Assembly (NCBI GenBank): GCA_002762985.1
Contig: PCXZ01000035.1
Location: 1-64,000 of the forward strand
DNA: 64,000 bases
Origin: Candidatus Woesearchaeota archaeon CG10_big_fil_rev_8_21_14_0_10_44_13
Lineage (GTDB): Archaea > Nanobdellota > Nanobdellia > Woesearchaeales > UBA12501
Direction of reading: 5' to 3'
Shown: positions 32,057-42,713 of the stretch, piece after piece
Position numbering within the stretch: position 1 is the first letter of the stretch
Layout: every line of letters starts with the position of its first letter
The notes under the pieces: generated by a model
What the model was told of the DNA's origin: nothing
The model's database searches: none
The model's input: only the letters and a program-made list of their open reading frames with translations
Position numbers and translations under genes: made by a program

Positions 32057-32248
32057 TTACCGGCTTTTGCCTCCTTTCTGTTCTTTCTTCATCGCTTCGA
32101 ATTCGACATACCACCTGTTCTGCTTCTGGTCGAACATGAAGACAACATTGTGCCTCTTTGAGATGTCCAAAGCGAATAGAAGGGGCATGGGGATCGTAGT
32201 CTCATAGCTAGAACCCCTTTTGTACAATTTTCTCCTTATCTCAGCCAT
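32057..32248 (-). CDS. AbrB-fold small protein
   Basis: 63 residues. RGSSYETTIPMPLLFALDIS followed by HNVVFMFD and WYVEFE resembles the swapped-hairpin AbrB fold, followed by a basic tail. Stop and RNase start are one base apart, so it is the first gene of a two-gene transcript. It may regulate its own operon. No toxin is adjacent, so it is not an ordinary antitoxin. Confidence 0.65.
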   Translation of the reverse strand: MAEIRRKLYKRGSSYETTIPMPLLFALDISKRHNVVFMFDQKQNRWYVEFEAMKKEQKGGKSR

Positions 32249-32602
32249 TTTATACCTTTTTTCTGTATTGATGTCGGTGCAGTTTGCGGTATTTCGGAGA
32301 TGCCAAACATTAAGCCAAACTTTGTGAGAGTGATCTGATAAAATACTTATTTTTTAACTTATTTATATATTAGTTTATATAATCTTTTTCTTACTTAAAT
32401 ATATACTTATATTTAAAGGTTTCGGTTCTGTCTAATCTTCGGCTGTTGCTTTGAGGGTGACGCAGAACGAGTGGCGCATTGAGGGTGACACATGAGGGGT
32501 GAGGCATTGGTTAATACTCGTCTGTTACATATAGGCTGGTAATGGCTCGGCTGATAGGATTTTTTCGTTAATTTATTAAATATCAGCCTTTTCTATGGTT
32601 TT
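32249..32602. other. A+T-rich intergenic region with short repeats
   Basis: 354 bp without a recognisable gene. The left part is extremely A+T-rich (32340-32415, several TATA-like words). A more G-rich part carries TTGAGGGTGACGCA near 32451 and again TTGAGGGTGACACA near 32479, then GAGGGGTGAGG. The P-loop gene that follows has its own leader. Nothing coding is visible. Confidence 0.4.
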
Positions 32603-32977
32603 ATGAAGACTATAGTTGTTATAAGGGGCAAAAGCAATACTGGAAAGACAACAACCATAAAGAGAGCATTGAAGGAGATATTTGGTATTGAAATCTATAA
32701 TCCAAATAAGGATATTGCATTGTTATTCAAGCATAAAGATAAAATGATTGCTATAATTTCAATGGGGGATGTATTATACAAAATAGAGGAATATTTTGAT
32801 AAGATGGAAGAAAAATTTGATATGATGATTTGTGCTTGCAGGACTAAAGGAGATACTATTACCTTCTTCGAAGAAAAGAAAAATATGTATAATATGGAGT
32901 TTATAGATAAGGTAGAAAACAATGAAGAAGAAGCTATCTCTAAAATAAAAAAAGTTTTAGAGACTTTTTTTAAGTAG
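32603..32977 (+). CDS. Small P-loop NTPase-like protein
   Basis: 124 residues, starting MKTIVVIRGKSNTGKTTTIK: a clean Walker A (GKSNTGKTT). The rest (MIAIISMGDVLYKIEEYFDK; MMICACRTKGDT) has a possible Walker B-like strand at FDMMICA. Very A+T-rich compared with nearby genes, and isolated in its strand context, both signs of acquisition. Small ATP-binding proteins of this type have no assigned function. Confidence 0.7.
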   Translation: MKTIVVIRGKSNTGKTTTIKRALKEIFGIEIYNPNKDIALLFKHKDKMIAIISMGDVLYKIEEYFDKMEEKFDMMICACRTKGDTITFFEEKKNMYNMEFIDKVENNEEEAISKIKKVLETFFK

Positions 32978-33072
32978 TTCTTCCCATCTGTTACTTTCTT
33001 GTATCCCTGCCAAACAAGAAACCTTTTTATACCCCTAAGAATAAACCCTTTCAGGGGTGCTGGAGTCATGTC

Positions 33073-33720
33073 ATGTCAGGAAAGAGCCTTTTTTGGAAAG
33101 CAGTGTTCGCAGCAGGGATCACTGCGGGCATATTGACCTTGAATTCATGCAAGCAGAGCAGCGGCAAATCCCTTGAGGAGATGACAGATGCCCCCTCTTC
33201 TATGCCCGCTGTGCATCATCAATCTTCTTCTTCAGGATACAACTCAGGAGAGGTTGTCGAAGGGGAATATCAGATTGTTGTAAGCTTAACCCGCCTTAAG
33301 ATGTATGTTCTCATGAATGATTCCATCGTGAAGGAGTTTCCAGTCACAGTCGGGGCATTTGAGACGCCTACCCCCAAAGGAGAGTATTTCATCGAAGGCA
33401 AGGTGAAGGATCCTGAATGGCACATCCCCAAGAAAGTGCGCAAGCACTGGAAGGATTATCCTTCCAGGAAAGTGCCTGGATCGGATCCGAGAAATCCAAT
33501 ACAGCATTACTGGATTGAATTGAGGGGAATGGATAATCCCGGAAAAAAGGTATCTTTCGGGATCCATGGCACAAACAAGCCGGAATCAATCCCTGACTGG
33601 GCATCCATGGGCTGCATAAGGATGACAGATGAAGGAATATCCTACATTGTTGATAAAGTGCCTGTCGGGTCAAGGGTGAGCATAAGGCAGAATTTCCTGC
33701 AAGAGACAGATTACAGGTAA
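33073..33720 (+). CDS. L,D-transpeptidase (YkuD) lipoprotein-like
   Basis: 215 residues. N-terminal hydrophobic FAAGITAGILTLNSC may be a lipoprotein leader (LNSC). YkuD domain about 60-205: YQIVVSLTRLKMYVLMNDSI, PVTVGAFETPTPKGEYFI, HYWIELRG and the catalytic IHGTNKPESIPDWASMGCIR (nucleophilic Cys, motif H-G-T...S-x-G-C-I-R). In bacteria this fold makes 3-3 crosslinks in peptidoglycan. TATA (CTTTTTATACC) gives an archaeal promoter. Its substrate in a probably peptidoglycan-free archaeon is unknown. Confidence 0.88.
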   Translation: MSGKSLFWKAVFAAGITAGILTLNSCKQSSGKSLEEMTDAPSSMPAVHHQSSSSGYNSGEVVEGEYQIVVSLTRLKMYVLMNDSIVKEFPVTVGAFETPTPKGEYFIEGKVKDPEWHIPKKVRKHWKDYPSRKVPGSDPRNPIQHYWIELRGMDNPGKKVSFGIHGTNKPESIPDWASMGCIRMTDEGISYIVDKVPVGSRVSIRQNFLQETDYR

Positions 33721-33735
33721 TCCGATCACACTAAA

Positions 33736-34419
33736 ATGTCAAACGGACAGAAAAAGTTCATAACACGCGGGGAATTCATCTTTCTGTCATTTTCTTCTGC
33801 AGTTGGATTCTTCACCGGAGTAGGGATTGCAGTCCTGAAAGACAGGAGAGAGGATCAAGAAGAGTCTATTGCAGAAAGCCTCGAATCCGCAGTTTCAGAC
33901 GCAGCTTCAACACCGGAGACAAGCGCAGGCACAATACCACGGGATGAAAGAATTACTGATGATTACATAATTGTTGTTGGCTTGCAGCAGCTTACAATGT
34001 ATGTCTTTAAAGGCGGCGCAAACATACGGCAGTTTCCTGTCTCTGTAGGCGCTTCACGGACCCCAACCCCCCCAGGTGAGTATTTTATCAAAGGAAAAGT
34101 AAGGAATCCGTCATGGCATTTCCCTAAACGAAGATTGGATCTTCTCGAGGATTATCCAAAAGGACATGTCCCTTCAAGGGATCCGCGCAATCCAATCAGG
34201 CATTATTGGATAGAGCTAAGAAGAGTTGAAAAGCCGGATAAGAACATCCCCATAGGGATACATGGGACAAATATGTCCAAAAGCATCCCTGGCAGGAATT
34301 CACAGGGCTGCATAAGGATGAACAAAGAGGGCATATATTATGTCGCAAAAAATATCCCCCTCTACACAAGACTGGATATAATCGAGGATGTGAGCATTGA
34401 CAAATACCTTAAGGATTAG
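33736..34419 (+). CDS. Second L,D-transpeptidase (YkuD), membrane anchored
   Basis: 227 residues. N-terminal hydrophobic FIFLSFSSAVGFFTGVGIAV anchor, then a linker and YkuD domain: YIIVVGLQQLTMYVFKGGAN, PVSVGASRTPTPPGEYFIKG, HYWIELRR, IPIGIHGTNMSKSIPG and catalytic SQGCIRMNKEGIYYV. Closely related to the upstream protein, including DPRNPI.HYWIEL in both; the pair is a tandem duplication 15 nt apart. Retention of catalytic His and Cys in both suggests two active enzymes. Confidence 0.88.
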   Translation: MSNGQKKFITRGEFIFLSFSSAVGFFTGVGIAVLKDRREDQEESIAESLESAVSDAASTPETSAGTIPRDERITDDYIIVVGLQQLTMYVFKGGANIRQFPVSVGASRTPTPPGEYFIKGKVRNPSWHFPKRRLDLLEDYPKGHVPSRDPRNPIRHYWIELRRVEKPDKNIPIGIHGTNMSKSIPGRNSQGCIRMNKEGIYYVAKNIPLYTRLDIIEDVSIDKYLKD

Positions 34420-34457
34420 CCCATACATTAATAAATAATATCTGATTTTTCATGCAT

Positions 34458-35297
34458 ATGAAGATTGCAGTCATAACTTCAACAAAAGACCCAGCAGGCA
34501 TGAACATAAGGCAGAATCTCATTGAGCAGGGATTCAAGGAGGGGAAAGAGGGGTTTGACAGCCATAAGGTCTGCATGTTGCAGGGTACAGAAGCAAGGAT
34601 TTACACGACAGATACCGATTCCATCCACTGCGAGAACATCGACAAAAAAATCGCAGAGCATGGATTTGACGCAGACCTTTTCATCTTCGCGACAAAGCAT
34701 TCCTCTGAAGCAGGAGTCAGGTCATTGTCTGTGCATGCTCCGGGCAACTGGGGGAATGCAGAGCTGGGCGGCAAAGACAGGCAGCTATGCATCGCACCAG
34801 CATCTTGTCTCAAGGCAGCTTTATTGAAGCTGGATGAGATTGGCAAATCCCTCAATGGCTTTGAGATGATCCAGGAATGCACGCATCACGGGCCTTTCAT
34901 CGAGAAACCCTGCATGTTCATAGAGATCGGAAGCTCAGCAGCAGAGTGGAGCAATAAGGAAGCAGGAAAAATAATCGCAGAGACCATAATTCATCTGATA
35001 AGAAACAAGCCAAAGCCATGCAAGACCATCTTCGGCATCGGAGGACTGCACCATACCCCTGAATTCTCAAAGATAGCAAGGAGGACAGGATATTCAGTAG
35101 GCCATGTGTGCCCGAAGTACAACCTGGAGAATCTTGACGAAGGGATGATAAGGCAGGCCTTGGAGAGGAATTCTGGGAATGAAGGGGAAATAGAAGTAGT
35201 TCTTGATTGGAAAGGATTGAAGGCAGGCAAGGAAAGGGTTGTGAAATTGCTTGACGAAGCAGGAGTTAAATTTAAGAAGACAAAGGACTTCATCTGA
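34458..35297 (+). CDS. dtd2: D-aminoacyl-tRNA deacylase, archaeal type
   Basis: 279 residues. Removes D-amino acids from mischarged tRNA. Family signatures: AVITSTKDPAGMNIRQNL at the N-terminus, LFIFATKHSSEAGVRSLSVH, ALLKLDEIG, ECTHHGPF, FIEIGSSAAEW, GIGGLHHTPEFSKIAR and GHVCPKYNLENLD. Full length compared with archaeal DTD2/GEK1. Start at 34458 (MKIAVITS) follows the family; ATG 34452 is 2 codons upstream. No SD, TATA (TTAATAAATAATA) about 25 nt earlier, so it has its own leaderless promoter. Its neighbours are L,D-transpeptidases. Confidence 0.93.
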   Translation: MKIAVITSTKDPAGMNIRQNLIEQGFKEGKEGFDSHKVCMLQGTEARIYTTDTDSIHCENIDKKIAEHGFDADLFIFATKHSSEAGVRSLSVHAPGNWGNAELGGKDRQLCIAPASCLKAALLKLDEIGKSLNGFEMIQECTHHGPFIEKPCMFIEIGSSAAEWSNKEAGKIIAETIIHLIRNKPKPCKTIFGIGGLHHTPEFSKIARRTGYSVGHVCPKYNLENLDEGMIRQALERNSGNEGEIEVVLDWKGLKAGKERVVKLLDEAGVKFKKTKDFI

Positions 35298-40357: not shown

Positions 40358-40631
40358 GCATACACCTTTTTTATATAGAAATGATAAAACGACTATTTAA
40401 ATGCTTCTCAAAATGTCGGATAATCCATTGGCTTGTGGATTACAGGTATTTTTGATATTCCCTCTGACGTGATAGGGGGGTTACGAATGAAATGAATAAC
40501 TTCCGGTCAGATGAATCTTCATAAATATCACATCAGATTTCATCACCATTCGATTGCTAAACGAGAGATAAGCCCGAAAAAATTTATAAATCCGCTGCCC
40601 ATTTCATAATTAAATTTTCTTGAGGGATGTG

Positions 40632-42713
40632 ATGGAGAGACAAAAAGCCGGCAGCGAAAGAAAGAACAGGATTCTCGTCATCGATAATGGGACGCAGTAC
40701 GGGCAGCTCTATGCAAAACGGTTCAGGGATCTTGGGATGGACGTCGAGAGCATTGATGCAGGGGTCTATTGCGATGAAGACGGGAACCTTGTAAGGCCGA
40801 AAGTTACGCTTGATGATGTTGCCGGGTTTGCGTGCGTCGTCATCGCAGGCGGAAGGAGCAGCGTCACAGACGCCCCGGACAGGAGAGTCGATATCGACCC
40901 GAGGATCTACAGCGATTATGAAGGGCCTCTTCTTGGCACATGTTTCGGGCATCAGGACATGGCTGACAGGCTGGGCGGGAAGGTCGTCAATGGACTGAAG
41001 CAGTGCGGGCCGGTCTACACCACTGTCAATCTGAAAAACCCTTTCTTTGAAGGATTAGGCAATCCCAGGCAAAGGGTCAACTCAACGCATAATGACGGTG
41101 TGATGCTGCTTCCTCCCGGTTTCAATATTATCGCGCACAGCTACAGCGTGCTTGATGACACGCTGCACATAGATGCGATGTTCAGGGATGCAGACAACGG
41201 AAAGAGAAATTACCGCATAGGGACTCAATTCCATCCTGAGACATTCCTCTCTGAGAACGGTTCAGCGATGCTGCTTAATTTCATCAGGCTCTCCGGTCTT
41301 GAGCCGAAAGAGATAAAGGGGGGCGTGAAGACAACACCGAATATCGACGGGATAGTCAATGAGCAATACCCTAGGATAAAAGACACAATAAAGGATCTGC
41401 CTGTGTTCCTTCCTCTGAGCGGAGGAGTGGATTCAACAGTCTCGACAGAGATGCTTCTCAGGGCAGGGATAGCCAGAGAAAAGATCCACGCATTCCATAT
41501 TGACACAGGCTTCAACAGGTACGGAGAAAGCGAAGAGGTCGTCAGGGAGTATCATGCGATGGGATGGAATTTTGTCGGACTGCTTGACAAGAAGGAATTC
41601 TTTGCGAACTTCTCCCTGTCTGAAGATGAGCTGAAGGAGTACAGGCCTGATCTGGCAGGGAAAGGTTTAGGGGATGTAAAGCTCAAAGACGCAGTATACT
41701 CAGAGCACAAAAGGGTGCTGTTCCAGGTGGCATACGACTTTGTCATAACTGGATACCAGAGAGAGCTGGGCCTTGATGAGACCAACTCTGTGCTTGTGCA
41801 GGGCACAAACCATGCAGACAAGGTCGAGAGCGGCAAAGGGGGCAAGAAGCGCAGCGGCAGTGCGCGAATCAAAACACACCACAATGTTGGCAAGTTCAGC
41901 GATAGATACAAGGAAGCCGGCCATCTTCTTGAGCCTATGGACAGGTTCTTCAAGTCAGACATCTACGAGCTTGCAAGGAGGTATGAGCTGCCCGTATTTT
42001 TCTCGACAAGAAAGCCTTTCCCGGGGCCAGGCGAGCTGATAAGGATCGGCAGCCACAACATGGTCGATACAGGGATGTACACCCGGCAGCAGATCAACAG
42101 ACTGGAGACCACTGCCAACGAATATTCCAGGCCAAGAGGCATATCAACATATGTGACTCCCCTGGAAGCCGTCGGGACATGCGGCGACGAAAGGGCAGAA
42201 GGAGCGATGGCTTTGCTCCAATTTGAAGGATCACATGAAGAGAGAGTGACGGAAGGGATAATGCAGCTGATGGATGCTGCAGGGCAGATACCCCACTACA
42301 CCACTTTTGGAAGTAGGGACTGCATAACAAGGCTTATGACCCCGCTGTTCGCATTCGACACAGGAAAAAAACCATCATTCAGCAGGATGAAGAATGAGGG
42401 GAAGTATGTTGAGATGCTGCAGCTATTTGACAAGGAAGTCAACAATCTTGTAGATAGGTTGGGGATAAAGATGACGCAGACCGTCAATTATATCATGACA
42501 GACAGCCTAGGGGAGGAAGGCAAGTATACTTTTGTCTTCAGGCCATGGATCGCTCCGGACCTGATGAGCGGAATGCCTTTGATACCCTCTGATAAAGAGG
42601 TCAGAGAACAGCTTTTTGGCGGGCTGAAGGCGCTGAAAGAGAAATATGATTTCATAGGCAATATATGCATAGATCTCACATACAAGCCTATAGGCGGGAC
42701 AGAGATAAATTAG
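40632..42713 (+). CDS. guaA: GMP synthase, glutamine-hydrolysing, fused and long
   Basis: About 693 residues: makes GMP from XMP, glutamine and ATP. Class I glutamine amidotransferase first (GPLLGTCFGHQDMADRLGG with catalytic Cys near 104, and GTQFHPETFLSE), then the ATP pyrophosphatase (VFLPLSGGVDSTVSTEMLLR; SGGVDS P-loop) and RKPFPGPGELIRI, QGTNHADKVESG and RIKTHHNVG. Most archaea have two separate subunits, and bacterial fused enzymes have about 525 residues, so length and fusion are unusual; human GMPS is also about 693. ATG 40632 lies after GAGG; a TTG at 40620 is less likely. TATA at 40580-40589. Confidence 0.92.
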   Translation: MERQKAGSERKNRILVIDNGTQYGQLYAKRFRDLGMDVESIDAGVYCDEDGNLVRPKVTLDDVAGFACVVIAGGRSSVTDAPDRRVDIDPRIYSDYEGPLLGTCFGHQDMADRLGGKVVNGLKQCGPVYTTVNLKNPFFEGLGNPRQRVNSTHNDGVMLLPPGFNIIAHSYSVLDDTLHIDAMFRDADNGKRNYRIGTQFHPETFLSENGSAMLLNFIRLSGLEPKEIKGGVKTTPNIDGIVNEQYPRIKDTIKDLPVFLPLSGGVDSTVSTEMLLRAGIAREKIHAFHIDTGFNRYGESEEVVREYHAMGWNFVGLLDKKEFFANFSLSEDELKEYRPDLAGKGLGDVKLKDAVYSEHKRVLFQVAYDFVITGYQRELGLDETNSVLVQGTNHADKVESGKGGKKRSGSARIKTHHNVGKFSDRYKEAGHLLEPMDRFFKSDIYELARRYELPVFFSTRKPFPGPGELIRIGSHNMVDTGMYTRQQINRLETTANEYSRPRGISTYVTPLEAVGTCGDERAEGAMALLQFEGSHEERVTEGIMQLMDAAGQIPHYTTFGSRDCITRLMTPLFAFDTGKKPSFSRMKNEGKYVEMLQLFDKEVNNLVDRLGIKMTQTVNYIMTDSLGEEGKYTFVFRPWIAPDLMSGMPLIPSDKEVREQLFGGLKALKEKYDFIGNICIDLTYKPIGGTEIN

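Follow-up and report, generated by a model that had tools for sequence, protein, structure and literature searches.

A tandem pair of YkuD (L,D-transpeptidase-type) genes inserted in an archaeal locus, candidates for action on bacterial peptidoglycan

In this work, we focused on a locus of a small, symbiont-type archaeon of the Woesearchaeota, whose genome (G000) of 1.5 Mb is 98.5 % complete and assembled in 36 contigs. The window, i.e. the whole stretch of 64,000 nucleotides that was analysed, lies on contig C25. The ORF listing of the window revealed two YkuD genes, hereafter P1 and P2, arranged head to tail with a gap of 15 nt and followed by the gene of a D-aminoacyl-tRNA deacylase, DTD2 (Table 1). 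The bacterial enzymes of the YkuD type cleave peptides of the cell wall and join them anew.

Table 1 Features of the YkuD locus and their positions in the window
Feature	Position	Strand	Evidence
AbrB-like small regulator, left edge of the insertion	32060..32248	-	Orthologues 59-65 % identical beside DTD2 in G067 and G042
Insertion of 2.2 kb relative to G067 and G042, from the AbrB-like gene to DTD2	32249..34451	.	Flank synteny in relatives without YkuD
P-loop ATPase-like ORF, 124 aa, within the insertion	32603..32977	+	Weak AAA_24 match; GC 0.283 vs 0.446 for the window
BRE/TATA-like box GAAACCTTTTTATA upstream of P1	33018..33031	+	Score 11/13, p ~0.045 vs shuffled upstream sequence; weak
P1, YkuD / L,D-transpeptidase, 215 aa	33073..33720	+	PF03734, catalytic columns, fold match
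P2, YkuD / L,D-transpeptidase, 227 aa, tandem paralogue of P1	33736..34419	+	PF03734, 52 % identity, clade with P1
DTD2, D-aminoacyl-tRNA deacylase	34452..35297	+	PF04414 207.7 bits (curated cut-off 33.6 bits); orthologues 35-44 % identical in five family members

Both proteins were recognised as YkuD members in a Pfam profile search (80.8 bits for P1 and 74.2 bits for P2, the curated cut-off of PF03734 being 23.4 bits), and the HGT...S-x-G-C-I-R-M motif was present in the alignment of both, which bears out the identity and the intact His/Cys motif given by a previous reading of this DNA made from its letters (hereafter the sequence-only reading). The residues concerned are His165, Cys181 and Arg183 in P1, with the same His and Cys columns in P2. 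When 28 relatives were aligned, all eight invariant columns, including those of His165 and Cys181, were retained in P1 and P2, and the column of Arg183 was nearly invariant; the catalytic columns are thus unchanged despite the two copies differing at half of their sites. An Arg at Cys+2 marks transpeptidases, DpaA-like amidases having mostly Ala or Asn at this position (PMC8263019). Both P1 and P2 carry this Arg (GCIRM) and the DpaA-type Ala/Asn is absent from them, their sequences matching true transpeptidases by His, Cys and Cys+2 Arg. Among the 36 DPANN YkuD domains inspected, the Arg was found in 21 and another residue in 15.

No domain beyond YkuD was detected by Pfam in P1 or P2, neither LysM nor any recognised peptidoglycan-binding domain. 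The predicted model of P1 was moderate overall (mean pLDDT 73) with a good core, and its closest solved structure, by profile and by fold, was B. subtilis YkuD, whose catalytic domain is similar in size and 28 % identical over the fold match. Unlike P1 and P2, the B. subtilis protein also has a LysM domain. The N-terminus of P1 reads as a hydrophobic segment closed by LNSC, which is lipobox-like, and that of P2 as a hydrophobic anchor without lipobox; as the sequence-only reading had suggested, P1 and P2 are likely exported or anchored proteins.

Archaeal promoters had also been claimed for these genes, a claim that was retained for P1 only and at a weak level of significance (p ~0.045). The box GAAACCTTTTTATA sits at -55 relative to P1, no BRE/TATA-like box was found before P2, and the box upstream of DTD2 scored no better than shuffled AT-rich sequence. 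P1 and P2 are probably co-transcribed, since P2 starts 15 nt after P1 and has no box of its own.

Insight into the history of the locus was gained from G067 and G042, which represent two further genera of the family and both lack YkuD. In these two relatives, DTD2 directly adjoins the AbrB-like gene, transcription pointing away from the latter, and the genes of the same block beyond DTD2 encode a small ORF and a P-type ATPase (G067) or a beta-CASP protein and an ATPase (G042). The window shows the same flanks, both syntenic with these relatives, but 2.2 kb apart, with P1, P2 and the AT-rich P-loop ORF between them. As DTD2 adjoins the AbrB-like gene in relatives without YkuD, it predates the insertion; it is the ancestral neighbour of the AbrB-like gene and lies outside the YkuD unit. 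The fold class of the AbrB-like product was judged by eye, no Pfam match being obtained, and only short, chance-like repeats were found bounding the insertion. The P-loop ORF (28 % GC) gave weak matches only, of AAA_24 and mad8 type, and looks recently acquired. Beside the AbrB-like gene, TACTTA repeats were observed in three copies in the window (32249-32470), seven at L071:6025-6290 and four at L072:2860-3110, and the element ACTTATATTTAA(A/G)GGTT was common to all three intergenic regions. This repeat- and element-bearing region is likely an operator conserved across genera, now parted from DTD2 in the window.

Over the YkuD domain, P1 and P2 share 52 % identity, and they form one supported clade (support 97 in one tree and 100/97 in another), so that tandem duplication is the simplest origin of the pair. 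A search of 353 genomes of the order yielded no orthologue of the pair, the best other match (68 bits) being no better than the best one of the bacterial sample (71 bits). The nearest named bacterial matches were mostly Methylococcales (27-36 % identity), the top one being an unclassified gammaproteobacterium (35 %). YkuD was present in 48 of the 279 phylum genomes sampled, i.e. about one in six, and in five of the ten family genomes. It has several independent origins in the phylum, a single origin for all DPANN YkuD being rejected (AU p 2.5e-58). One clade uniting the pair with the multi-domain YkuD of the sister genus g4 was weakly rejected (p 0.026), by a test picked after the tree had been seen. 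No donor phylum was assigned, as one tree placed the pair next to Actinomycetota (support 83/83) whereas BLAST favoured G136, another DPANN genome, and Methylococcales as nearest. A viral origin was discarded, since viral contigs contained no relative and a single weak PHROG match, to a family of unknown function, was obtained; a defence system was discarded too, PADLOC having matched neither P1 nor P2. The best reading of these sequences is that P1 and P2 are horizontally acquired, of bacterial type and tandemly duplicated.

Judged by domain and motif, P1 and P2 are ordinary YkuD members and not LdtE equivalogs. They share with the ErfK/YbiS/YcfS/YnhG-type proteins of Gram-negative bacteria (LdtA-C, LdtE) both the YkuD motif and the insert KVKDPSWH...VVPPGPxNPLG. 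LdtE (NF047955) was their best NCBIfam match (49.2 bits for P1 and 46.3 bits for P2), the equivalog cut-off of 480 bits not being reached, and they are 23-26 % identical overall to LdtB and LdtE of E. coli. They differ from this type by the lack of a LysM or wall-binding domain, by their probably anchored N-terminus and by their archaeal host, in which no peptidoglycan synthesis was detected.

Family searches of G000, for which bacterial controls were positive, gave no match to Mur ligase (PF08245), D-Ala-D-Ala ligase (Ddl, PF07478) or penicillin-binding transpeptidase (PBP, PF00905). Likewise, Mur-ligase-type genes numbered at most one in each of 47 phylum genomes tested, whereas both bacterial controls had six apiece. 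The absence of a peptidoglycan pathway, put forward by the sequence-only reading, was therefore supported for these families, and no full peptidoglycan gene set was found in the genome; P1 and P2 thus serve no known wall of the archaeon's own. An SLT lytic transglycosylase is nevertheless encoded by G000 (323 aa, hydrophobic segment at the N-terminus), an archaeal Nre gene adjoining it on its contig, and a second SLT match was retrieved by family search. Within the phylum, SLT was found in 31 of the 48 YkuD-positive genomes vs 101 of the 231 others (p 0.011, uncorrected for kinship), an association that may reflect kinship. In G095, a DPANN genome without Mur ligase match, three D-Ala-D-Ala-ligase-type genes were observed in a row (contig C22:3718-6564).

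YkuD occurs in various architectures in other genomes. In the sister genus g4 of the same family, an 831-aa protein (L058:3-2495, genome G284) fuses NlpC/P60, YkuD and polysaccharide deacetylase, which together are a wall-editing domain set. An archaeal YkuD is fused to a PGA_cap (capsule synthesis) domain at L003:1303-3042 (G015), and three tandem long YkuD ORFs of 1005, 603 and 588 aa, with N-terminal regions of unknown nature, are found at L032 (G128, contig C4).

Our preferred interpretation, the chances of which we consider evenly balanced, is that P1 and P2 are horizontally gained L,D-transpeptidases acting outside the cell on bacterial peptidoglycan, that of a partner or of prey. We infer their export, enzymatic activity, substrate and partner as follows. 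A bacterial-type YkuD gene would have been transferred horizontally into the archaeal locus and then tandemly duplicated. After export, both products would stay attached to the outside of the archaeal membrane, through its hydrophobic anchor in the case of P2 and perhaps through a lipid in that of P1. The Cys would attack the L-D bond of a tetrapeptide stem on the peptidoglycan of the partner or prey, releasing D-Ala, after which the acyl group would be accepted by a second stem peptide, by a D-amino acid, by an amine of a protein or by water. As an outcome, the partner wall may be resealed, stiffened or edited, or an archaeal surface protein may be fixed to it, P1 and P2 working alongside the archaeon's own lytic transglycosylase. 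Of the functions listed by the sequence-only reading, the one with most support is action on the wall of a bacterium or host, because of this lytic transglycosylase in G000 and of the NlpC/P60-YkuD-deacetylase fusion of g4. Against it count the lack of a recognised peptidoglycan-binding domain in either protein, the need of L,D-transpeptidases for tetrapeptide stems, the close wall contact that an anchored enzyme needs, and the fact that known hosts of cultured DPANN are mostly archaea.

Comparable modes of action are documented in bacteria. L,D-transpeptidases of the predator Bdellovibrio (Bd0886 and Bd1176) stabilise the wall of the invaded prey cell (PMC10482364), a likeness to the proposed mode that is an analogy only; unlike this archaeon, Bdellovibrio has its own wall. 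In Tlde1a, an antibacterial type VI secretion effector, the L,D-transpeptidase fold is likewise turned on the peptidoglycan of another cell (PMC9638812), but this effector is injected and has an altered fold and a capping subdomain, whereas in P1 and P2 the YkuD domain is plain and preceded by a probable anchor. Bacterial wall enzymes in wall-less DPANN (lytic transglycosylases) are an already known kind, as are bacteria-killing peptidoglycan hydrolases in archaea more widely (PMC12352652). The murein lytic transglycosylases and peptidoglycan hydrolases of DPANN and other archaea are, like P1 and P2, bacterial-type enzymes in organisms without peptidoglycan of their own (PMC8204110, PMC9723730, PMC12352652); they cleave glycan or peptide bonds, whereas P1 and P2 belong to a joining family that these three papers do not mention. 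We regard as rather unlikely the further proposal that an archaeon lacking peptidoglycan remodels, or covalently bonds itself to, the wall of a living bacterial host via membrane-held L,D-transpeptidases. The same standing is given to the analogy that would make such enzymes the counterpart, across domains and without hydrolysis, of what Bdellovibrio does to the wall of its prey.

In a literature search of incomplete coverage, no report was found joining YkuD with Woesearchaeota, nor any mention of YkuD or ErfK in the 15 best-ranked DPANN papers. The DPANN literature found discusses hydrolases only, yet about one in six of the phylum genomes sampled carries YkuD. Hosts have been established for a minority of DPANN archaea. 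Enzymes of a wall-joining type, encoded by genomes that make no wall, point to bacterial partners, of which YkuD would be a marker testable by activity on sacculi, by carbapenem block and by fluorescent D-amino-acid label at contacts.

Alternatively, P1 and P2 could serve to crosslink or anchor surface proteins of the archaeon itself, the YkuD thioester chemistry being retargeted from peptidoglycan to protein in a sortase-like envelope-building step. This unlikely scheme would suit a cell without peptidoglycan of its own; in addition, the YkuD gene of G136 lies near those of PKD/dockerin and papain-type surface proteins, a large PKD protein is also found on the window contig, and bacterial members of the family attach proteins to peptidoglycan (PMC8263019). 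However, the transpeptidase motif and the active-site columns are unchanged, which suggests that the donor substrate with its L-D bond is unchanged too; moreover, archaeal surface proteins are not known to contain a D-amino-acid donor, and the sporadic distribution of YkuD is unlike that of a core envelope function. A nutritional role, to which we grant slightly less credit still, would make P1 and P2 L,D-carboxypeptidases or amidases trimming environmental or partner peptidoglycan peptides to yield D-Ala or muropeptides for uptake. YkuD-fold L,D-carboxypeptidases exist, e.g. Bd1075 (PMC8938487), amino acids of peptidoglycan have been proposed as a food source for a DPANN group (PMC11537232), and the lytic transglycosylase of G000 fits such a use. 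Nevertheless, the cited carboxypeptidases have Val or Ala in place of the Arg of P1 and P2 (PMC8938487), and Arg at Cys+2 favours transpeptidation (PMC8263019). Own-surface crosslinking and scavenging both rank below action on bacterial peptidoglycan.

The sequence-only reading had also attached a functional sense to the DTD2 neighbourhood, with coping with D-amino acids among its options. Although the genes are adjacent and on the same strand, it is most improbable that YkuD and DTD2 form one module handling or detoxifying D-amino acids, as this is contradicted by synteny, DTD2 being older than the insertion and its place being kept in relatives without YkuD. Furthermore, DTD2 was absent from all other YkuD loci collected, so that the survey of DPANN that had been suggested yielded no second YkuD-DTD2 neighbourhood, and no DTD2 match was obtained in three g4 genomes with several YkuD genes (genomes 76-91 % complete). 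The neighbourhood is incidental, since the pair fills an insertion between the AbrB-like regulator and DTD2, and the D-amino-acid option has the adjacency as its sole support.

Bacterial contamination or a chimeric contig, which the bacterial-type genes and the assembly in 36 contigs might evoke, is scarcely credible, in agreement with the sequence-only reading: the two flanks of the insertion are parts of a single ancestral archaeal locus, which argues against an assembly join, notably between 33.0 and 34.5 kb; an archaeal EF-2 is encoded 12 kb away on the same contig (47727-49892, 1058 bits vs a cut-off of 738); the GC content of P1 (47 %) and P2 (45 %) is like that of the window (44.6 %); and YkuD lies on long contigs of other DPANN, e.g. 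of 576 kb (G136) and 268 kb (G057).

Elsewhere in the window (40620-42713), a 697-aa protein was observed that comprises both the amidotransferase and the synthase part of GMP synthase and scores far under the equivalog cut-off; it would represent a divergent or re-purposed GuaA.
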